From Rhodanobacter sp. B05 (GTDB lineage Bacteria; Pseudomonadota; Gammaproteobacteria; Xanthomonadales; Rhodanobacteraceae), in NCBI RefSeq assembly GCF_002001085.1, contig NZ_MUNU01000007.1, positions 1 to 64,000 on the forward strand: a stretch of 64,000 nt of DNA. Reading direction: 5' to 3'. Made by a program: the position numbers and the translations under genes. The first letter of the stretch is position 1. Every line of letters starts with the position of its first letter. Below the pieces are notes generated by a model that worked only from the letters and a program-made list of their open reading frames with translations, was not told where the DNA came from and searched no databases. Shown here piece by piece: positions 1,360-35,900 of the stretch.

Positions 1360-2133
1360 ATGAGTTTTCGCTCCGCTGGTTTTCGGCCTACCGTTCTCGC
1401 GGCCGCCGTGGCGCTCGCGTTTGCGCTGTCCGCCACCGCCCTGATGGCCCAGCCGCAAGCCGCCGCACCCGCGGCCGCCGCTACCGCAGCGCCACCCGCC
1501 AGCACCGGCACGGCAGCCGCGCCTGCCGCTGCAGCCGAGGTCGCGGTCAAGCCTGGTGACGCCACCGCGGGCCAGGCCAAGGCCGCAGTCTGCGGCGCCT
1601 GCCACGGGCTGGACGGCAATTCCAGCGATGCGCAGTACCCGAAACTGGCTGGCCAGAGCGAGGAGTACATCGTGCGCCAGCTGACCGATTTCAAATCCGG
1701 CGCGCGGCAGAACCCGATCATGCTGGGCATGGCCACGCCGCTGTCCAGCCAGGACATGCATGACATCGGCGCCTATTTCGCCAGCCAGAAGTCGCGGCCC
1801 GGGGTGGCCGACCAGGCCCTGGTCGAGCACGGCCAGACCCTGTTCCGCGAAGGCGACCCCACGCGCGACGTCCCGGCCTGCATGGCTTGCCACAGCATCG
1901 ACGGTCGCGGCAATCCGGGTGCGATGTACCCGCAGCTGGCCGGCCAGCATGCGCAATACATCGAAGCCACGTTGAAGGCCTGGCACGATGGCACCAGTTG
2001 GGGCAGCGATGCGCATTCGCAGATCATGCCGACGATCGCCAGGAAGCTGGACGCCGACGATATCGCCGCGCTGGCCAGCTACATCGAGGGCCTGCACGGC
2101 ACCGATGGCCAGCCGGCCGCCGCCACGCCCTGA
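1360..2133 (+). CDS. Diheme cytochrome c4-type protein
   Basis: This 257-residue exported protein has a signal peptide (about residues 1-30), an Ala/Pro-rich linker (31-62) and two cytochrome c domains. The heme motifs are CGACH (78-82) and CMACH (174-178), each followed by a KLAGQ or QLAGQ segment and a distal Met region typical of cytochrome c4. Cytochrome c4 passes electrons in the periplasm, usually towards terminal oxidases. The ATG at 1360 was chosen because CGGGAG lies about 8 nt upstream and it begins a good signal peptide. Two DsbA-like genes follow in the same direction, which fits a periplasmic redox cluster. Confidence 0.92.
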   Translation: MSFRSAGFRPTVLAAAVALAFALSATALMAQPQAAAPAAAATAAPPASTGTAAAPAAAAEVAVKPGDATAGQAKAAVCGACHGLDGNSSDAQYPKLAGQSEEYIVRQLTDFKSGARQNPIMLGMATPLSSQDMHDIGAYFASQKSRPGVADQALVEHGQTLFREGDPTRDVPACMACHSIDGRGNPGAMYPQLAGQHAQYIEATLKAWHDGTSWGSDAHSQIMPTIARKLDADDIAALASYIEGLHGTDGQPAAATP

Positions 2134-24836: not shown

Positions 24837-25604
24837 ATGCACCGTCTTGCGATCGTCCTCGTCCTGCTGCTTGCCACCGTCGCCTGCCGGGCAGCGATTC
24901 CGGTCTACGGCTACCAGATCGTGCACGCCTACCCGCATGACACCTCGGCCTATACCGAGGGTTTGTTCTACAAGGACGGCTACCTCTACGAAAGCACCGG
25001 CGAAAAGGGCGCATCGAGCATACGCAAGGTGCAACTGGAGACCGGCAAGGTGCTGCAGCGGCACGAGGTGCCATCGCAGTATTTCGGGGAGGGCATCGTC
25101 GACTGGAACGGCCAGCTGGTCCAGTTGACGTGGCAGAGCGAGACCGGCTTCGTCTACGGCCTGGACGACTTCAAGTTGCGGCACACCTTCAGCTACCCCG
25201 GCGAAGGCTGGGCGCTGACCCGCAACAACCGCCATATCTACATGAGCGACGGTTCATCCGTGCTGCGCATCCTCGACCCCGATACGCTGGCCGCGATCGG
25301 CAGCATCATGGTGACGGCCGACGGCGTGCCGGTCACCAATCTCAACGAGCTGGAATGGGTCGATGGCGAGATCTACGCCAACATCTGGCTGACCAACCGC
25401 ATCGCACGCATCGATCCGGCGACCGGCCATGTCGTCGGCTGGATCGACCTGACCGGCCTGTTCGACGTGAACACGCTGCCGCGGCCCGTTGACGATGTAC
25501 TCAACGGCATTGCCTGGGATGCGCAGCACGATCGCCTGTTCGTCACCGGCAAGAACTGGCCGAAGCTGTTCGAGATCAAGCTGGTGAAGCGGGTTGCGCC
25601 ATAG
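24837..25604 (+). CDS. Secreted glutaminyl-peptide cyclotransferase (plant/bacterial type)
   Basis: This 255-residue protein has a signal peptide (about 1-19) followed by a five-bladed beta-propeller of the plant-type glutaminyl cyclase family. Landmarks are HDTSAYTEGLFY, YESTGEKGASS, YFGEGIVDW, QLTWQSE, SYPGEGWALT, SDGSS, NLNELEWVDG and NGIAWD, which match the conserved repeat of that family. These enzymes form N-terminal pyroglutamate on exported peptides. It lies 29 bp after dbpA in the same direction and converges with the diheme cytochrome gene. Confidence 0.9.
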   Translation: MHRLAIVLVLLLATVACRAAIPVYGYQIVHAYPHDTSAYTEGLFYKDGYLYESTGEKGASSIRKVQLETGKVLQRHEVPSQYFGEGIVDWNGQLVQLTWQSETGFVYGLDDFKLRHTFSYPGEGWALTRNNRHIYMSDGSSVLRILDPDTLAAIGSIMVTADGVPVTNLNELEWVDGEIYANIWLTNRIARIDPATGHVVGWIDLTGLFDVNTLPRPVDDVLNGIAWDAQHDRLFVTGKNWPKLFEIKLVKRVAP

Positions 25605-25631
25605 CGCCGCGCCACGCCGCATCGACCGACC

Positions 25632-26339
25632 TCACAACGTGCCGAGGTAAGTCGACAACGCCTGCACGTCGGCGTCGCCAAGTGTTTGCGTTACACCTTG
25701 CATCACCTTCGCATTGCTGCTGCCGGCACGCATGCCGCTCCTGTAATCGCCCAATTGCTTGGTCAGATAGAGTCCGGACTGGCCTCGAAGATAGGGGAAC
25801 GTGGCCCATGGGGGCTGTGGTGCGCTGCTCGGGTGCGGTTGCGGCCCCATTCCGGTCGGGCCGTGGCAACCCTGGCACGGCGGAATGCCTTGCGCGGGAT
25901 CGCCGGCCAGATACAACTGCGCACCGCGTGAACTCGCATCAGCCTGACCGGCCGGCTTCGGAGCCAGCGACGCGTAATAGCTGGCCAGGTCGCGCATGTC
26001 GGCGTCGCTCAACGCGGCAGCCTGGCCCGTCATCACCGGATCATTGCGCTGGCCGTCGTGGAATTCCTTCAACTGCGCGTAGAGATAGGTCGCCGACTGA
26101 CCGGCCAGGTTCGGAAAGGTCGGCGCGATCGCCACGCCCTGCGCACCATGGCAGGCCGCGCACACCGCGGCCTTGCCGGCACCGGCCTGGGCGTCGCCAC
26201 TGATCGGCTGCATCCGGCGCTGGTCGAGCAACTTGACCGGCGTTGCCGCGGCATCGGCTGCCGGCTGTTGTGCCACGCAGCCCATCGCCATGCTGCAACC
26301 AAACAGGAACACGCCAAGGAGGCTTGTGCGATTTGTCAT
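25632..26339 (-). CDS. Diheme c-type cytochrome of the electron-conduit operon
   Basis: This 235-residue exported cytochrome has two c4-like domains with CAACH (60-64) and CQGCH near residue 150. Each is followed by a FPNLAGQ- or FPYLRGQ-like segment and a YL-x-QL-x-(E/D)(F/Y) helix. The signal ends near GC (Cys21), so it may be a lipoprotein. It is the third gene of a leftward unit, 11 bp behind the MtrB-like gene, so it is likely the periplasmic carrier that exchanges electrons with the decaheme cytochrome. This is inferred from position and family. Confidence 0.9.
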
Positions 26340-26350
26340 CCGGGCGCTCC

Positions 26351-28966
26351 TCACAACTTCAAGTTCAACATGACGCCGACCAGGCTCACGCTGTAGTGCA
26401 GCTGGCCGCCCTTGTCGGTGTAGAGGCGATGGTCGTAGCTGAGCGTGTTGTCGAGCCCGGCGTAGTGCCAGTCGCTGAACGCGCCGGTTTCGTAGCGACC
26501 GTACAGGCGCACGCCGACGTTGCGGTTGACGCGGAAGCTCAGGCCCAGGTCGAGCGTATTGGTGCGGTACTTGTTGTCCGGAAAACCGGCCTCGGCCGCG
26601 GCCACGCCGGCAGGATCACGATAGGCCAGTGCACCGATGCTGGCATAGGTGTAGCCGACATGCCCGAACGAGCCGGTGTAGTTGTAGCTGATATCGGCGC
26701 GTGCGCGGCCGAAGTCGTGACTGAAGCTCAGGCCCGCGTTGCGATTGCTCTCGCGATCGAACTCCCACCACTGGTTCGCGTACGGATACAGCGGCCCACC
26801 GAGGTTCGGATTGGTCTGGCCGATCGTGCCGAGGCCGGCGCCGTTGTCGGGCGCATCCGAATCGCCGACGTTGGAGATGCCCATGCGCGAGCCCTCCACA
26901 CCGAGATAGGCGTTCATCGTGGTCGCCGGTGTCGGCTGCCAGTCCCACTGCACGGTGGCGCCGGTGGTGTTGGTGGTCTGCCGGCCGATCAGGGCATCGT
27001 AGTTGTCACGATTGCCGTAGAACGTGGCCGACAACGTGGCCGACTCGCCCCATGGATAGGTGACGATCGCGCGCGCCTTGCTCTCGGTGCGATTGGACAG
27101 GTCGTATTTGCGCATGTCGGCTACCGTGTGCGCCGGCAGACCGGTGGCCGGATCGACGAAACCCGGCAGCGACTCGGAGAAGAACTGCGCGTACGGATCG
27201 TAGTTGTACTTGTCGCCGTCGCGTTTGGCGTACTCCCAGCTCAGCCGCACGGTGGCGCCGATGACATCGCGACTGACCCAGTCGAACTTGATGCGCTGGT
27301 CATCGACGCGCTTGCGCTCGCGATACTTCGGCTGGTTGTGATCGTAGGTGTAGGTGACGCCGAGCGAAGTCTTGCGGCCGAGCTGCCAGTCGCTGCCCAG
27401 TTCGAAGATGCTGTCGGTGTACCCAAACGGATTGTTGCGCACGGTGACGTTGGACGACCAGTACAGCGGGTTGGTCGGGTCGAAGATGCCGGTCTCACCC
27501 GGCACCACGCTGCCCTGCGAGCCGTTCTCGGAGATGTAGCCGTACTGGCCGGTGAGCGGGTTGTAGGCGAGATAGCGGGTCTTGTCGTCCTCGCGATACC
27601 AGCGCAGGCCGGCATGCCAGCCGAACGCCGGCGCAGGCTGGAAGGTAACCCGTGCATCGAACAGGCCGGTGTCGATGCGCGCGTTCGCGTTCTGCCGCGA
27701 TAGTGCCGCGGTAGTGTTCCAGTTCGCGCACTGGAAGGTGTAGTTCACCGGCGGTGCGATGAAGATGCCGCCGGTGCCGGTGCAGGCGGTCGGCGGCAGC
27801 AGCGCCGCGTTCTGGCGCATCGTGCCCCACGCGCCGGCCACGGTGAACTGGCCGTTCCCTTTCAGTTCGCGCGACAGATCCAGCCGGATGTTGTGGTAGT
27901 CGTTATCCGGCTCCAGCGAGAACTGACCGTCCTTGATGTCGGCCACCTGCGGTGTGCCGACCACGTTATACAGCGCGAACGGGTTTTCGAAGTCCAGATG
28001 GTCCTTGTGGTTGCGGAAGAACGAGCCGTTGTAGGTGGCGAGGAAGTGCCAGAGCTTGCCGACGTTGCGCACGCTGAGGTTGATGTCGGTGGTGCGGAAG
28101 TCGATCGGCCGCACCGTTTCCAGCACGCCACCGTTGTCGGGGAACGGGAAGTTGAAGAACATCGAGCCGCCCCACAGGCGGGTGCCGGTGCGCTTCTCGT
28201 TGGTGATCGCGGCCGAGCCGATCCAGTTGCGGTAGAGCACGCCTTCGTAGCTCAGGCCGCTGCGCGTGCGGGTGAGGCCGATGCTGCGCCGTGGCGTGGC
28301 GGCTGATACCGCAGCGACCTGCGCCGGCGTGCTGGCACCGGCGACCAGCGATGACGGCAGGGTCAGGTCGGTGCTGCCTACACCGTTCCAGATCGGGTAC
28401 GCGCTGGTCGATACCGTGTGTGGCATGTCGCGATAGAAACCTTCGACCCGGTAGCTGCCGTAACGACCGCCGCGCAGACGGTAAAACTGGTCGTCACCGC
28501 TGATCCGGCTGCCGCGCAGATCCACATAGCTGCCGGTCTTGCGGTTATTGAAGTCGAGCGCGAACAGGCCAAGCACCGCACCGCTCTTCCAGTCGTCGTA
28601 CTGGCGGAAATATTCTGCGTTGCGATCACCACCGACGTGCAGGTAGCCGAACTCCAGCAGGCCGCTGTAGGTCCAGTCACCCTGTCCGACCGGCTTGCCG
28701 GCATCGATCAGCAGTGGATACGGATACAGTGCGCCGGTGGGTGTGCGCAGCATGCCGGCGTGCAGGTAGGACATGCCGTCCGGGTCGGCCGGATACAGCA
28801 TCGGCGTCCAGCCGCGCGGGTCGAGCCCGTTGCCGTATTGCATGTCGCCCACGCGCATGGTGCCGCTGGTGTCACCCGCCAGCGCGCCCTGCGTGCCGAA
28901 CAGCCCGCACAGCAGAGCGAGCGCCAAAGTACTCAGCGTCGTGCGATTCCCTTTCAGCGCAAGCAT
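26351..28966 (-). CDS. MtrB/PioB-family outer-membrane beta-barrel (decaheme-associated porin)
   Basis: This 871-residue barrel protein has a signal peptide (about 1-30). The family-specific N-terminal region is [28 protein letters not shown] (landmark at about 88-115), [15 protein letters not shown] and [23 protein letters not shown]. Many amphipathic strands follow to the C-terminus. MtrB/PioB barrels wrap an MtrA-type decaheme cytochrome and let electrons cross the outer membrane. The mature N-terminus lacks the CxxC seen in Shewanella MtrB. It lies 12 bp after the decaheme gene on the same strand, the usual MtrA-MtrB order. Confidence 0.92.
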
Positions 28967-28978
28967 CGTCCGCCTCCG

Positions 28979-30112
28979 TCACTCGTGGAACTTCGGTCCG
29001 GAAGGATTGTTCGAGCCGTGGATATTGCTGTGGCAACTCAGGCAGCCGCGCCCGATCAGCCGCTCGTCCGGATGCGGGCCGTTGGCGAGTCCGGCCGCAC
29101 TCTGCAGATCATTCGGGTGACGCGTCATGGTGTGGCACTGCTGGCACAGCATCGGGATCGGCGCGACCAGCAGGGTCTGCTGGTTGGAACCGTGCACGTC
29201 GTGGCAGTTGAGGCAGTTCGCGCGTACCGGCGCGTGTTCGAACAGGAACGGCCCGCGCTTCTCGGCGTGGCAGGTGTAGCAGGTCTCGTTGACCGTATCG
29301 GTCTTCAGCAGCGGCTTGGTGATGCTGCCGTGCGGATTGTGGCAATCGGTGCAGGCGATCTGCCCTTCCGGCAACGGCATGTGCGAGCGGCGGTTGAACT
29401 TGGCGCGGATGTCCTGGTGGCAGGTCGCGCAGACCTCGTTGATCGACGACTTCGCCAGCACGCCTTCGGGCGACAACTTGGCCATCGGGTTGTGGCAGTC
29501 GGTACAGGACAGGCCGCGGTTCTGGTGGATCGAACCGATCCAGTGCTGTCGCGCGCCGCCGGCATGGCAACTCAGGCAGACGCCGGCCTGCACCTGCGGC
29601 GAGGTTTTCGCGTCATGCGTGAACGCGATGATCGAACCTGGCGCAGTGGGATTCTTGGCATGCTCGGAGCCCGGGCCGTGGCAGCTTTCGCAGGCGGCTT
29701 GCGGACCACTGTTCGCCGCACCGGCACGGAACGCGCCGACGTGCAGGCTGTGCGAGGCCTGCACGTTTTCCTGCGAATGACAGGCCACGCAGGTCTTCGC
29801 TCCCACCGCATCGGCATTTGGCGCCAGCGGGTTGACCGGTATCGAGGCCGCGTCGAACGGGGTGGCCTGGCTGTCGTCCACCGGCGCCAGGTGCGGATTG
29901 TTGGCGCGGGCCGCGTGGGCGCCCATGTCAGTGGCCGGCAGCATCTTTGCGATGTCGCTCTGGCTGAGCCCGCTGGACGGACTGTGCGAGGCATCGGTCG
30001 GCGACGTCGCGGCGGCTTGCTGGGCCTGCGCGTCGTGGGAACCCAGCACCATCCCGCCGGCGCCCAGCACGACGCAAATCGAGGCCGCAAGAAACAACGA
30101 AATCACACGCAT
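28979..30112 (-). CDS. DmsE/MtrA-family decaheme c-type cytochrome
   Basis: This 377-residue exported cytochrome has a signal peptide (about 1-31), a 90-residue Ser/Ala/Pro-rich leader and exactly ten CxxCH heme sites: CVACH, CESCH, CLSCH, CTDCH, CATCH, CTDCH, CYTCH, CLNCH, CQQCH and CLSCH. The CTDCHNPHG and C-x2-CH-x2-HG spacing is that of the DmsE/MtrA/PioA family. It would form the heme wire inside the MtrB-like barrel encoded 12 bp downstream. The ATG at 30112 has AAGGGG 9-10 nt upstream. Fe(II) oxidation inward or metal reduction outward are both possible; the sequence does not decide. Confidence 0.95.
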   Translation of the reverse strand: MRVISLFLAASICVVLGAGGMVLGSHDAQAQQAAATSPTDASHSPSSGLSQSDIAKMLPATDMGAHAARANNPHLAPVDDSQATPFDAASIPVNPLAPNADAVGAKTCVACHSQENVQASHSLHVGAFRAGAANSGPQAACESCHGPGSEHAKNPTAPGSIIAFTHDAKTSPQVQAGVCLSCHAGGARQHWIGSIHQNRGLSCTDCHNPMAKLSPEGVLAKSSINEVCATCHQDIRAKFNRRSHMPLPEGQIACTDCHNPHGSITKPLLKTDTVNETCYTCHAEKRGPFLFEHAPVRANCLNCHDVHGSNQQTLLVAPIPMLCQQCHTMTRHPNDLQSAAGLANGPHPDERLIGRGCLSCHSNIHGSNNPSGPKFHE

Positions 30113-30134
30113 GGCTTGAAGCCCCTTGGCTAGC

Positions 30135-30227
30135 GTGAATACTGCAAAGCGATCGGCCGGTCCGCCCTCGCTCGGCACGCACCCCCTCAGTGCATCCGGC
30201 CTTGTCCCATGACGGAGGAGTATTCAC
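30135..30227. promoter_or_regulatory. Inverted 9-mers in the divergent LysR / decaheme region
   Basis: GTGAATACT at 30135-30143 and its exact reverse complement AGTATTCAC at 30219-30227 lie 75 bp apart in the 254-bp divergent gap. They are AT-rich against a GC-rich background. They could be two half-sites for the neighbouring LysR-type regulator, but a pair of this size can also arise by chance, so this is weak. Confidence 0.25.
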
Positions 30228-30366
30228 CTTGGATCGCGGGATTGATAAGCCCTGTGCATTGCGTTGAATGTCCACGATCGAAGAACAATCCATCAGGATT
30301 GCGCATCGCAGCAAGACATTGCGCCGTACTGCGCTAGCCTGTCCGGACACCTCGCAAGGACTTGCC

Positions 30367-31329
30367 GTGCAGGATCTCACCGACATCTACTATTTCGTGC
30401 AGGTGGTCGAACTGGGCTCGTTCACAGCGGCCAGCAAGGCGCTGGGCGTGGCCAAGTCGCAGCTCAGTTTCCGGGTGGCGCGACTGGAGGCCAGTCTCGA
30501 CGTGCGGCTGATCCAGCGCACCACCCGCCGCTCGCACGTCAGCGAGATCGGCCGCCGCTATTACGAACAATGCCGGCTGCTGCTGGCCGCCGCCGAGCAG
30601 ACCCAGCGCGTGATCGACGAAGCCCAGGCGGCGCCGCGCGGACGCATCCACGTGGCCTGCCCGGTGTTGTTCGCGCAGCTATTGCTGGCGCCGATCCTGG
30701 TCAATTTTCTGCGGCAGCACCCGGACGTGCAGGTCGACCTCGACATCTGCCACCACCAGGTCGACGTGATCGCCGGCGGCTACGACATCGCGTTCCGGGT
30801 GCGCGATTCGATCAAGGATTCCAGCCTGGTGATGCGCAGCTACGGCATGGATCCGCAGATCCTGGTAGCCAGCCCCGAGCTGCTGCTGCGCCAGGGCCGG
30901 CCGACCCAGCCGATCGAGCTCAAGCGGCTTGCCAGCCTCGGTGTGATCAACGCCGAGGGGCGGCATTTCTGGCACTTGCAGGCCGCCGACGGCCGCACCC
31001 AGCAGGTCGAACATCATCCGAGCCTGGTCAGCGACGACCTGCAGGTGCTGTACCAGGCGGTGATCGGCGGCGTCGGCATGGCGCAACTGCCGCAGTTCGT
31101 CTGCCGCGAACCGATTGCCGAGGGGCGGCTGGTGCCGCTGCTGCCGGCATGGTCGCTGCCACCGGGCAACGTGCACGCGGTGTATCCGTCGCGCCACGGG
31201 CATACGCCGGCGCTGCGCTGCTTCATCGACTTCGTGGCGCAACGCATGCCGCAGGTATTGCGCCGCACGCAGCAGGGCCTGCTGGCCGAAAACGCGCGAC
31301 CGGTACAGGAACAACGCGCCTTCGGCTAG
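30367..31329 (+). CDS. LysR-family transcriptional regulator
   Basis: This 320-residue regulator has an N-terminal winged HTH (DIYYFVQVVELGSFTAASKALGV, landmark residues 5-27, then SQLSFRVARLEASLDVRL) and a C-terminal periplasmic-binding-like effector domain. The GTG at 30367 was chosen because AAGGA lies 6 nt upstream and the HTH then starts at the usual position; an in-frame ATG at 30268 would add 33 residues not found in the family. It is divergent from the decaheme/porin/cytochrome operon, the usual position for a LysR regulator of its neighbour. Its stop overlaps the convergent flavoprotein stop. Confidence 0.9.
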   Translation: MQDLTDIYYFVQVVELGSFTAASKALGVAKSQLSFRVARLEASLDVRLIQRTTRRSHVSEIGRRYYEQCRLLLAAAEQTQRVIDEAQAAPRGRIHVACPVLFAQLLLAPILVNFLRQHPDVQVDLDICHHQVDVIAGGYDIAFRVRDSIKDSSLVMRSYGMDPQILVASPELLLRQGRPTQPIELKRLASLGVINAEGRHFWHLQAADGRTQQVEHHPSLVSDDLQVLYQAVIGGVGMAQLPQFVCREPIAEGRLVPLLPAWSLPPGNVHAVYPSRHGHTPALRCFIDFVAQRMPQVLRRTQQGLLAENARPVQEQRAFG

Positions 31330-32573
31330 GCCGCCGACCGCGCCGCCAGCCAGTGTGCGACGCCATGGCCGGCAATTCGTCCGCTGGCAAAGCAGGCGGT
31401 GAGCAGGTAGCCGCCGGTGGGCGCCTCCCAGTCCAGCATTTCGCCCGCGCAGAACACGCCGGGGCGATCACGCAACATCAGGTACTTGTCCAGTGCCTCC
31501 AGCCGCACGCCACCGGCGGTGCTGATCGCCTCGGTCACCGGCCGCGGTGCGCGCAGGCGCAGCGGTAGCGCCTTGAGTTGCATGGCAAGGGCAAAGGGAT
31601 CGGCCAGCGCAGGCTTGTCGACAAGCTCGAACACCAGCGCACATTTGGCCGCATCCAGCCCGGCGCGGCGACGCAGCCAGTCGCCGAGGCTGTGCTTGCC
31701 ACGCGGCGCCGCAAGGCGCTCGGCCAGCGCCGGCTGCGTGTAACCGGGCACCAGGTCCAGCTTCAGCAAGGCCTCGCCGCGTTCGGAAATCTGTTCGCGC
31801 AACTCGGCGCCGATCGCGTAGACCAGGCTGCCCTCGATGCCGTATTCGCTGAGCACGAACTCGCCCTGACGCGCGTGCGCCACGCCGTGCCGGTCGTGCC
31901 AGTGCGCCACCACCGGCTTCAACGGCGCGCCGGCGAAGCGGCTGCGCAGAAGCTCGCTCCAGTCCAGCTCAAAGCCGCAATTGGCCGGCTGCAGCGCTGC
32001 GACATCCACACCAGCGCGCGTCAGTGGTGCCACCCAACCGCCATTCGAACCCAGCTGCGGCCAGCTTGCTCCACCCAGTGCGAGCACGACCGCGTCGACA
32101 GGCAGCGCGCGCTCACCGTGCGGCGTGGCGAAATGCAGCGTGTCGTGCGCCTGCCAGCCCAGCCAGCGATGGTGCATGTGGAACTCCACACCGGATTCGC
32201 GCAGGCGCCGCACCCATCGACGCAACAGCGGCGCTGCCTTCATGTCGACCGGAAAGACCCGCCCGGAGCTGCCGACGAAGGTCTCCACGCCAAGCCCGCG
32301 TGCCCATTCCCGCAACGACTGCGCGTCGAACGCAGCGAGCCAGCGTGCGATCTCGGCCTGACGCGCACCGAATCGCTCCACGAAGCGCGCCGGTGCCTCC
32401 GCATGGGTCAGGTTCAAGCCGCCTTTGCCGGCCAACAGAAACTTGCGGCCCACCGAGCCCATCGCATCGTACAGATCCACGCGCATGCCAGCCGCGCAGG
32501 CGGTCTCGGCAGCCATGAGGCCGGCGGGACCACCCCCGACAATGGCGAGTCGTGGTGGCGGAACGCGTGTCAT
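31326..32573 (-). CDS. BaiN/YhiN-type FAD-dependent flavoprotein (HI0933 family)
   Basis: This 415-residue flavoprotein has the FAD motif AIVGGGPAGLMAA (about 9-21) and the family signature GRKFLLAGKGGLNLTH (about 43-58). A C-terminal FCAGEMLDWEAPTGGYLL segment (about 380-397) carries the second FAD-contact region. It belongs to the HI0933/TIGR03862 group of putative reductases with unknown natural substrate. The ATG at 32573 starts right before the FAD strand; the open frame continues upstream without a better start. It converges with the LysR gene, and their stop codons share bases. Confidence 0.87.
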   Translation of the reverse strand: MTRVPPPRLAIVGGGPAGLMAAETACAAGMRVDLYDAMGSVGRKFLLAGKGGLNLTHAEAPARFVERFGARQAEIARWLAAFDAQSLREWARGLGVETFVGSSGRVFPVDMKAAPLLRRWVRRLRESGVEFHMHHRWLGWQAHDTLHFATPHGERALPVDAVVLALGGASWPQLGSNGGWVAPLTRAGVDVAALQPANCGFELDWSELLRSRFAGAPLKPVVAHWHDRHGVAHARQGEFVLSEYGIEGSLVYAIGAELREQISERGEALLKLDLVPGYTQPALAERLAAPRGKHSLGDWLRRRAGLDAAKCALVFELVDKPALADPFALAMQLKALPLRLRAPRPVTEAISTAGGVRLEALDKYLMLRDRPGVFCAGEMLDWEAPTGGYLLTACFASGRIAGHGVAHWLAARSAA

Positions 32574-33359: not shown

Positions 33360-35900
33360 ATGCCAAGTCATTTTCGTCTCAAGTTGCTGGTCGCGGCCAT
33401 CGGTATCGCCGCCGCAGGTTCCATCGGCGCCACTCCGGCCGGCACGGCCGTCGGCAGCAATGCATTCGTCGCGCTGAACCAGCATGCGACCGCCCTGCGC
33501 CAGGGTGACGTGGTCACCGGTCCGCTGTCACCGGCGCAGCCGATACACATCGAGGTCGCATTGAAACTGCGCAACCCGGCCGAGCTGCACAATTTCATCG
33601 CCACCGCGAGGAACTCGACGCTGTCGATCGTGCAGCGCGCGATGACCACGTCGCAGTTCGCCACCAGCTACGCGCCAACCGCACAGCAGGCGAACCAGGT
33701 TGCCGCCTGGCTCAAGGCCGCCGGCTTCACCCATGTACAGATCGCGCCGAACCGGATGCTGGTGTCGGCCGACGGCCGCGCCGACACCGCACAGGCTGCG
33801 TTCAAGACCACGTTCGCCCAGGTGCACACGCACGATGGCCGCGCCGCCTTCATGCACAACGGCGACGTGCAGATTCCCGCGTCGCTGCAGGACGTCGTGC
33901 TGTCAGTGGTCGGCTTGCAGAGCGTGCACCAGGCACACACCTTCGCCAAGCCGATGCAGGCCGGCTACACGACCCAGGCGGTGACCGGCCACAACCCGAC
34001 CGAGTTCGCCTCGATCTACGGCGGCAGCGGCGTGGCTACGGCGGCTGGCGTGCCGGTGGGCATCGTCACCCAAGGCAACATCACCCAGACCATCACCGAC
34101 CTGAATACGTTCACCTCGCAGAACGGCCTGGCCACAGTGACCACGCAGACGATCAACACCAACGGCACCAGCAGCGACACCAGCGGGCTGGGTGAGTGGA
34201 GCCTGGACAGTCAGGACATCGTCGGCATGGCCGGCGGCCAGGTCGGCAAGTTGATCTTCTACAACATCCCGACCCTGTCCAACGCCAACCTTACCGCCGA
34301 CTTCAACGCCATCGTCAACGCCAACGCGACCAAGATCATCAACGTGTCGCTGGGCGAGTGCGAAACCAGCGCGCAGGGCGACGGCTCGGCCGCGGCGCAG
34401 GACCAGATCTTCCAGCAGGCGGTGGCACAGGGCCAGACCTTCTCCATCTCCACCGGCGACTCCGGGGCCGACGAATGCGGCAATGGCGGCGTCACGCCGA
34501 GCTGGCCGGCCGCCTCGCAGTACGTGGTGGCGGTGGGCGGCACCACGCTGAATGCCTCCACCACGACCTGGAACAGCGCCACCGTATGGAGCAGTGGCGG
34601 CGGCAGCTCCAGCACCTTCGAGCCGCAGCCGAGCTGGCAGAACGGCGTGGCCCCCGGCAGCACGCGCGGCCTGCCGGACATCGCCTACGATGCCGATCCC
34701 AACTCGGGCTCGAAGATCATCGTCAGCGGCGCCACCCAGCAGTACGGCGGCACCAGCCTGTCCGCGCCGCTGTTCGCCGGGACCTGGGCCCGCGTGATCG
34801 CGATCAAGGGCGCCGGCGTCGGCTTCGCGGCACCGCTGCTGTACCAGTTGCCGGCGTCCGATTTCCACGACATCACGTCGGGCAACAACGGTGGCGAAAG
34901 CGCCAGTGCGGGCTATGACCTGGCCAGCGGCCGCGGCGAACTGATCATCAGCGGCGCCGCGAACGACATCGGCGGTGGCGGTGGCGGCGGCAACGTGCCG
35001 CCGGTCGCGAACTTCAGCGACAGCATCAGCAACCTGGTGGTGAACTTCACCGACAGCTCCACCGACAGCGATGGCACGATCGCCTCGCGCTCGTGGAACT
35101 TCGGCGATGGCGCCACCTCGACGGCGACCAACCCCAGCCACACCTACTCGGCCGCCGGCACGTACAGCGTCTCGCTGACGGTGACCGACAACAGCGGCGC
35201 GACCAACACCAAGACGCAGTCGGTGACGGTCACGGCCGCAGGCGGTGGCGGTGGCAATCAGTTGCAGAACGGCGTGGCGCTTGCCGGCCAGTCCGGTGCA
35301 ACCGGTGCCCAGCTGTTCTACACGGTGGTGATCCCGGCCGGCGCCAGCAACCTGGTGATCTCCGAGTCCGGTGGCACCGGTGACGCGGACCTGTACACCA
35401 GGTTCGGTTCCGCGCCGACCCTGTCCAGCTACGATTGCCGCCCGTACCTCACCGGCAACAACGAGAGCTGCACCGTGGCTTCGCCGCAGGCAGGCACCTA
35501 CTACGTCATGCTGAATGGCTACCAGGCCTTCTCCGGCGTCAGTGTCAAAGCGACCTGGAGCACCGGCGGTGGTGGCGGTGGTGGCGGCAACGTGCTGCAG
35601 AACGGCGTGCCGGTAACCGGCCTGACTGCCACGCGGAACAACGCCGTGTACTACACGATGGTCGTGCCGGCCGGCGCCAGCAACCTCAACATCAACATCG
35701 CCGGTGGTACGGGCGATGCCGACCTGTACGTGAAGCTGGGTTCGCAACCGACCACCAGCAGCTACGACTGCCGTCCGTATGTCTCGGGCAACAACGAGAG
35801 CTGCACGGCCTCGGCACCCACCGCGGGCACGTACTACATCATGGTGAGGGCTTACGCGACGTACAAGAACGTCACCCTGACCGGCAGCTACACCCCGTAA
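33360..35900 (+). CDS. S53 (sedolisin/xanthomonalisin-like) protease with PKD and two PPC domains
   Basis: This 846-residue secreted protease has a signal peptide (about 1-27), an activation propeptide (about 45-200) and an S53 catalytic domain (about 215-535). Catalytic residues are Glu279 and Asp283 in GLGEWSLDSQD, Asp367 in STGDSGAD (oxyanion) and Ser466 in GGTSLSAP. A Gly-rich linker, a PKD domain (about 545-630) and two tandem PPC domains (about 634-735 and 743-846) follow. S53 enzymes are acid-active pepstatin-insensitive endopeptidases; PPC domains are usually removed after export. The ATG at 33360 has GGGAG at good spacing. The two PPC copies are nearly alike. Confidence 0.94.
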   Translation: MPSHFRLKLLVAAIGIAAAGSIGATPAGTAVGSNAFVALNQHATALRQGDVVTGPLSPAQPIHIEVALKLRNPAELHNFIATARNSTLSIVQRAMTTSQFATSYAPTAQQANQVAAWLKAAGFTHVQIAPNRMLVSADGRADTAQAAFKTTFAQVHTHDGRAAFMHNGDVQIPASLQDVVLSVVGLQSVHQAHTFAKPMQAGYTTQAVTGHNPTEFASIYGGSGVATAAGVPVGIVTQGNITQTITDLNTFTSQNGLATVTTQTINTNGTSSDTSGLGEWSLDSQDIVGMAGGQVGKLIFYNIPTLSNANLTADFNAIVNANATKIINVSLGECETSAQGDGSAAAQDQIFQQAVAQGQTFSISTGDSGADECGNGGVTPSWPAASQYVVAVGGTTLNASTTTWNSATVWSSGGGSSSTFEPQPSWQNGVAPGSTRGLPDIAYDADPNSGSKIIVSGATQQYGGTSLSAPLFAGTWARVIAIKGAGVGFAAPLLYQLPASDFHDITSGNNGGESASAGYDLASGRGELIISGAANDIGGGGGGGNVPPVANFSDSISNLVVNFTDSSTDSDGTIASRSWNFGDGATSTATNPSHTYSAAGTYSVSLTVTDNSGATNTKTQSVTVTAAGGGGGNQLQNGVALAGQSGATGAQLFYTVVIPAGASNLVISESGGTGDADLYTRFGSAPTLSSYDCRPYLTGNNESCTVASPQAGTYYVMLNGYQAFSGVSVKATWSTGGGGGGGGNVLQNGVPVTGLTATRNNAVYYTMVVPAGASNLNINIAGGTGDADLYVKLGSQPTTSSYDCRPYVSGNNESCTASAPTAGTYYIMVRAYATYKNVTLTGSYTP
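35424..35806 (+). repeat. Tandem PPC-domain repeat within the S53 gene
   Basis: The segments 35424-35473 and 35757-35806 encode almost the same string (SSYDCRPY, one or two changed residues, GNNESCT) with a 333-bp period and high DNA identity. The flanking GGTGDADLY and AGTYY segments repeat with the same period. This shows an internal domain duplication that is fairly recent or kept similar. Confidence 0.8.

Follow-up and report, generated by a model that had tools for sequence, protein, structure and literature searches.

Described outer-membrane conduits close to the one considered here are MtrCAB of Shewanella (PDB entry 6r2q), PioABC of Rhodopseudomonas (PMC6831781), MtoABD-CymA of Sideroxydans with mtoABD of Thiomonas (PMC5566968), and the c552-MtrA-MtrB operon of Telmatospirillum (PMC6933298). 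A conduit of this MtrAB type, i.e. a decaheme cytochrome of the MtrA/DmsE family with an adjoining MtrB/PioB barrel, is encoded in the window, by which we mean the whole analyzed stretch of 64,000 nucleotides from Rhodanobacter sp. B05 (contig NZ_MUNU01000007.1). The pair belongs to a cassette of three minus-strand genes with gaps of 12 and 11 bp, for the decaheme, the barrel and a diheme cytochrome c4, and a LysR gene is divergent from it. We propose, with a probability of about 0.6, that the cassette encodes an inward conduit in which electrons pass from the decaheme to the c4 and on to an oxidase. The following features are referred to below.

28979..30112, minus strand: decaheme c-type cytochrome, MtrA/DmsE family (10 CxxCH motifs, TIGR03508, PDB 6r2q_A)
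26351..28966, minus strand: MtrB/PioB-type outer-membrane barrel, 871 aa (PF11854, model, Foldseek)
25632..26339, minus strand: diheme cytochrome c4, ATG start at 26339 (PDB cytochrome c4 matches, PF00034)
30367..31329, plus strand: divergent LysR-type regulator (PF00126 and PF03466, counterparts in 8 further cassettes)
30269..30287, minus strand: dyad TGTTC-N9-GGACA, candidate LysR operator (intergenic alignment)
30219..30228, minus strand: conserved block GGTGAATACT, possibly belonging to the decaheme promoter (invariant in 6/6 aligned intergenic regions)
30122..30131, minus strand: conserved AGCCAAGGGG, probable ribosome-binding site of the decaheme gene (invariant in 6/6 aligned intergenic regions)

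An earlier interpretation made from the DNA alone (the sequence-only reading) had described a ten-CxxCH cytochrome, an 871-residue barrel and a diheme cytochrome opposite a LysR gene, and both family searches and coordinates bear this out.

The decaheme of the window is homologous to that of Shewanella MtrCAB and the barrel fold is shared. In contrast to MtrCAB, however, the window has no MtrC, no CymA and no N-terminal CxxC in its barrel, while its pair has a clade of its own, a c4 partner and an N-terminal tail on the decaheme. A Shewanella-type MtrCAB was rejected, since neither MtrC nor CymA was found in the genome by family searches. Rhodopseudomonas PioABC resembles the cassette in combining a decaheme and a barrel with no extracellular cytochrome, and a high-potential iron-sulfur protein (HiPIP) is adjacent in 4 of 36 related cassettes. 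PioA, however, carries an N-terminal extension of approximately 200 residues (PMC6831781) that is missing from the window decaheme; the window pair falls in a separate clade and has a c4 at its side rather than the HiPIP PioC, which is not adjacent. In the MtoABD systems (PMC5566968) a decaheme, a barrel and a small cytochrome c likewise share one operon, without MtrC. Unlike there, a two-heme c4 takes the place of MtoD in the window, the genome has no CymA, and the MtoAB-like locus L033 falls with the MtrCAB rows in our trees. The Telmatospirillum operon (PMC6933298) combines a diheme with decaheme and barrel, again with no MtrC, but its diheme lies upstream and is proposed to be extracellular, a CymA-like protein is present, and the culture is a goethite-reducing one. 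In form, the window cassette comes close to Thiomonas mtoABD (PMC5566968) and to the Telmatospirillum operon.

In Acidithiobacillus ferrooxidans a periplasmic cytochrome c4 and a blue copper protein pass electrons from iron to the oxidase (PMC5982212). The azurin-bearing relatives of the window cassette share this combination, whereas the outer-membrane entry of A. ferrooxidans is Cyc2 and not a decaheme-barrel pair. Cyc2 homologues are mentioned for Rhodanobacteraceae or Rhodanobacter (PMC10654088, PMC5566968). No description of the cassette in Lysobacterales was found in the open-licence literature, subscription literature and most full texts being outside the scope of this search.

Decaheme, barrel and cytochrome c4

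The decaheme contains ten CxxCH motifs, scores 258 bits in the TIGR03508 profile search (cut-off 192) and matches MtrA (PDB 6r2q_A) with E 4.8e-64. Structure models were made of single chains only. That of the decaheme is weak, with a predicted local distance difference test (pLDDT) of 63; its sole structural match is MtrA 6r2q_A, and it is too weak for use beyond this match. Ahead of the first heme lies an N-terminal stretch of 107 residues, signal included. Of 29 clade rows, 26 have an LPx[TSN] motif and 28 an NP motif in this tail; either motif is found in 0 of 21 other rows. Judged by these motifs, the tail is clade-specific. Alphaproteobacterial decahemes (L084, L090, L091 and L123) have 135-177 residues ahead of the first heme; this extension does not resemble the tail seen in Lysobacterales.

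The barrel scores 313 bits for PF11854 (cut-off 23) and 230.7 bits for TIGR03509, slightly below the cut-off of 240. Its model (pLDDT 87.7, predicted template modelling score (pTM) 0.84) has 26 long strands by our count. The best Foldseek match of this model is MtrB 6r2q_B with E 5.4e-47 and a template modelling (TM) score of 0.90 by target length; the runner-up is far behind (E 6.6e-12). The similarity to MtrB backs the assignment to an outer-membrane conduit made in the sequence-only reading. The lack of the N-terminal CxxC of Shewanella MtrB, likewise pointed out there, is confirmed by an alignment of 57 barrels, among which only L073 has a CxxC in the first 90 residues.

The diheme protein matches solved cytochromes c4 (PDB 6q2u, E 4.9e-40; 1etp, E 1.2e-33) and has a PF00034 domain. 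A further match, PDB 1h1o, presumably comes from A. ferrooxidans. By these similarities the diheme partner is a cytochrome c4 with two class I heme domains, which makes the previously suggested role of a periplasmic shuttle plausible. Its N-terminal linker carries a DxR motif that is found in 36 of 37 c4s of the clade's cassettes and in none of the 31 remaining proteins of their cluster. This count includes the Rhodanobacter locus L081, whose cassette is of this type and had first been left out owing to its cut decaheme. The tails of the decaheme and of the c4 may thus help the two partners to dock. The idea of a lipobox in the c4 was dropped, since 4 of the 68 proteins in the two-heme cluster match the pattern and the window c4 is not among them. 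A second cytochrome c4, 38% identical to that of the cassette and without DxR, is encoded at window positions 1408-2133 near an EngB-like GTPase gene.

Clade and gene neighborhood

Phylogenetic trees were calculated for both proteins by quick searches, with support from the Shimodaira-Hasegawa-like approximate likelihood ratio test (SH-aLRT) only and a sampling that follows the query. For the decaheme tree, 107 rows passed a motif filter and 104 were kept, L081, L124 and L131 being dropped as partial; of the 111 loci offered to it, L091, L108, L116, L179 and L180 also gave no row. For the barrel tree, 57 of 94 barrels were picked by hand. Among the decahemes, the window falls in a clade of 41 rows (support 99), nearly all Lysobacterales by title, within a larger clade of 81 rows (99). 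MtrCAB, MtoAB-like and second-type rows from the window's genus form, together with five unlabelled rows, a group of 16 (99). The barrels yield a Lysobacterales-type clade of 29 rows (100). PioA of Afifella is located in the same 88-row half of the decaheme tree as the window, but it is not sister to it and lies outside the 81-row clade; the corresponding PioB lies on the MtrB side of the midpoint root, opposite the window. In both trees the MtoAB-like row L033 joins the MtrCAB rows and stands apart from the window. The window pair hence appears as a clade of its own, outside the rows labelled MtrCAB, MtoAB-like and PioABC, in both trees. These labels are to be read with their origin: MtrCAB was assigned from neighbors, that of L178 having 7 heme motifs and not 10, and PioA of Afifella from its HiPIP neighbor. 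Long branches were flagged, several of them among the MtrCAB-side rows. R. palustris PioA, Sideroxydans MtoA and Shewanella DmsE are not among the rows. The likeness to PioAB/MtoAB proposed earlier is not supported as family membership, since a separate clade results from either tree. Within the window's genus, L037 and L038 contain a different, MtoA/MtrA-like conduit with single-heme neighbors, and genome G009 carries both types.

The barrel family PF11854 was detected in 56 of 120 relatives at E ≤0.001 and exceeds the cut-off in 51. Named genomes were scanned through the best 80 of 564 related loci. Cassettes of the window type are found, among others, under the record titles Rhodanobacter, Frateuria, Dyella, Fulvimonas, Dokdonella, Tahibacter, Pseudoxanthomonas, Luteimonas and Stenotrophomonas.

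Gene order was compared for 40 cassettes in 39 loci, 36 of which are uncut beyond the barrel; L052, L062, L063 and L080 are cut by contig ends, and L185 stands outside these counts. Genes were taken from a custom gene caller and span at most four upstream and five downstream. The names ccm, nap, complex I and EngB and those of several neighbors are our assignments from sequence and gene order. Within two genes after the barrel, a c4 gene is present in all 36 uncut cassettes, and the layout is therefore beyond chance. Azurin follows the cassette in 5 cases, a plastocyanin-like cupredoxin adjoins it in 5 and a HiPIP in 4, at least one of them being present in 12 of 36; HiPIP and copper labels derive from clustering, with Pfam confirmation in sampled proteins. 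Of the 36 cassettes, 9 have apparent cytochrome c maturation genes as neighbors. Over the whole span, no other protein was labelled with two or more heme motifs except for the c4 and a tandem cassette. In a Rhodanobacter metagenome-assembled genome (MAG), decaheme, barrel and c4 genes are duplicated in tandem (L083, 7775-16780), the last c4 being cut by the locus end.

In L068, L070, L050, L065, L066, L074 and L075 the cassette lies inside an apparent ccm operon, together with HiPIP or azurin; it is inserted either between ccmE and ccmF or between ccmB and ccmC. Outside the Lysobacterales, an azurin-like copper protein follows a decaheme-barrel pair in an Opitutaceae MAG of the Verrucomicrobiota (L093, 11638-12114). 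PioABC-like arrangements with HiPIP-like genes after the pair are present in Afifella (L127, 11428-11712; L129, 11400-11678), where the PioC-like HiPIP tested by Pfam scores 22.2 and is barely over the cut-off of 22. In Thauera (L109) and Pseudothauera (L114), a decaheme, a barrel and two diheme genes lie beside a four-heme NapC-type gene and nap-like genes.

Direction of electron flow

We propose that the three gene products form an electron conduit through the outer membrane. As in the 6r2q homologues, the decaheme would sit inside the barrel; its last heme would be exposed to the outside and not be capped by an extracellular cytochrome. The N-terminal tail of the decaheme would face the periplasm and touch the co-encoded c4, whose own tail bears the DxR motif. 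Electrons would enter from an extracellular reductant, e.g. reduced humic matter or Fe(II) in complexes or minerals, and would then pass from the decaheme via the c4 to the cbb3 oxidase and to oxygen. Azurin, cupredoxin or HiPIP may be further members of this relay in relatives.

The genome, assembled in 19 contigs, was examined by family searches. No MtrC/OmcA was found with TIGR03507 (0 matches). The only match of PF03264, used for CymA/NapC, is the decaheme itself, other quinol dehydrogenase families and Cyc2 not having been searched. Consequently, the lack of an adjacent MtrC/OmcA or CymA, as noted before, extends to the whole genome. A cbb3 oxidase is present (ccoN over the cut-off), as are two HiPIPs, on contigs C13 and C4, away from the cassette. 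RuBisCO was not found by family search, and the process would therefore supplement heterotrophic growth or maintenance. From its genome content the host is probably an aerobic heterotroph. A second decaheme-barrel-c4 cassette is located on contig C17 (L032, 8849-13349), with no LysR gene beside it. The gene run after it, including sigma-factor-like and peptidase-like genes, also adjoins the cassettes of L059 and L060.

Cytochrome c4 belongs to a family of oxidase donors, and c4, azurin and HiPIP are high-potential carriers. Since relatives pair the conduit with other high-potential carriers, an inward draw of electrons into respiration is suggested. The inward direction is further preferred because MtrC and CymA were not found, the partner is a c4, a cbb3 oxidase is present and A. 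ferrooxidans offers a precedent. Of the inward PioAB/MtoAB-like route in the sequence-only reading, the direction stands as the better guess, whereas the family does not. Several observations weigh against the proposed scheme. An adjacent azurin, cupredoxin or HiPIP is present in 0 of 15 uncut cassettes of the subclade that holds the window, versus 12 of 21 outside it. A match to the PdsA family, far below its cut-off, bears the name of a diheme shuttle in a reducing pathway. The genome absences rest on family searches of a 19-contig assembly, and the LysR-decaheme gaps of L072 and L078 contain no dyad within two mismatches. MtrAB-type conduits can run both ways, and according to Baker et al. 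(PMC8805035) the net direction is not inferable for most MtrCAB carriers found. In addition, Telmatospirillum, a goethite-reducing alphaproteobacterium, has a diheme-MtrA-MtrB operon that lacks MtrC (PMC6933298), and two-heme genes lie near four MtrCAB-side reference loci (L178, L179, L180 and L035).

The last two points equally favor an outward conduit, in which, under oxygen shortage, a c4 fed by the bc1 complex would send respiratory electrons via the decaheme to acceptors outside the cell, e.g. Fe(III), Mn(IV) or humic quinones. The NapC-type and apparent nap genes adjoining the cassettes of Thauera L109 and Pseudothauera L114 point the same way. The genome, however, is without CymA/NapC and MtrC/OmcA, and the high potentials of c4, azurin and HiPIP are ill-suited to Fe(III) oxides. 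Outward flow is rather unlikely. It is quite unlikely that the lineage acquired a member of the known Fe(II)-oxidizing families, i.e. PioAB or MtoAB proper. The core pair is the same, MtrC is lacking and a periplasmic carrier adjoins; Thiomonas mtoABD is also three-part (PMC5566968), and Afifella PioA is located on the window's side of the decaheme tree. Against this stand the separate clade in both trees and the lack of a PioA-type extension of 200 residues (PMC6831781), of an adjacent HiPIP and of CymA, with c4 replacing MtoD.

Electron exchange with extracellular quinones or phenolics in either direction, serving redox balance or protection with LysR sensing a phenolic, would be consistent with the divergent LysR gene, with a dyad found once in the genome and with the missing RuBisCO. 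Yet no catabolic neighbor recurs among the clustered genes, most neighbors being without a family search, and we consider this explanation very unlikely. A DmsEF-type conduit for an extracellular dimethyl sulfoxide (DMSO) or similar reductase could be argued from the profile name, DmsE family, which also covers MtrA. The sole PF00384 match in the genome, however, is a complex I subunit, as read from the surrounding genes, and therefore no DMSO or nitrate reductase of that family was found. The sequence-only reading had named a placement of the pair with DmsEF next to a DMSO reductase elsewhere in the genome as a finding that would speak against it; with no such reductase found in the genome by PF00384, DmsEF was set aside as extremely improbable. 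The nitrate option is weakened as well: PF00384 finds no Nar or Nap, while nitrite reductases and later steps were not searched.

Extending inward flow from the window to its clade, we tentatively suggest, at somewhat below even odds, that the cassettes of the Lysobacterales constitute a distinct lineage of inward conduits in soil and water heterotrophs, which use their own c4 via matched tails and are partly extended by azurin, cupredoxin or HiPIP. If this is true, outer-membrane electron uptake would not be limited to specialist iron oxidizers and phototrophs but would be a widespread sideline among ordinary heterotrophs of soil and water. The parts are present in genomes titled Rhodanobacter, Dyella, Frateuria, Dokdonella, Pseudoxanthomonas and Stenotrophomonas, several of them named strains, and culturable organisms would thus be at hand for testing how an MtrAB-type conduit is regulated, which partners it chooses and in which direction it works. 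The conduit may also bear on iron weathering in soils. A study of diorite weathering discusses Dyella isolates obtained at weathering sites as well as a Dyella-related bin in which a Cyc2 homologue is present (PMC7767972).

LysR regulator and intergenic region

A divergent LysR gene of the window's kind accompanies 9 of 36 uncut cassettes, the window included; the other eight are 40.6-89% identical to it. The dyad TGTTC-N9-GGACA is invariant in all six aligned LysR-decaheme intergenic regions. In L046 the same gap contains the perfect palindrome TGTTC-N9-GAACA, which differs from the dyad of the window by one base, so that 7 of 9 LysR-linked cassettes have a dyad in this gap. In 1.97 Mb of collected loci the exact dyad is present in six LysR-decaheme gaps (that of the window also in an overlapping locus) and in two other places, against a chance expectation of about 3.8 at even base composition. 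A longer dyad pattern, allowing at most one mismatch, occurs at one place in the host's own genome, namely here, and its reversed control gave 0. At the same tolerance the dyad is absent from the tested upstream stretches of the second cassette (L032) and of L059, L060, L061 and L058. LysR is thus likely a dedicated regulator of the cassette, acting via a conserved candidate operator; it would bind the dyad and control this cassette alone. The conserved dyad thereby supports the role given to LysR in the sequence-only reading. No promoter was found by a sigma-70 consensus scan of 25500-31400.

Alignment with five relatives shifted the start of the decaheme from GTG 30178 to ATG 30112 and that of LysR from ATG 30268 to GTG 30367. 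Apart from the cassette, the window encodes a kumamolisin-type protease with PKD and two PPC domains (Pfam) at 33360-35900.

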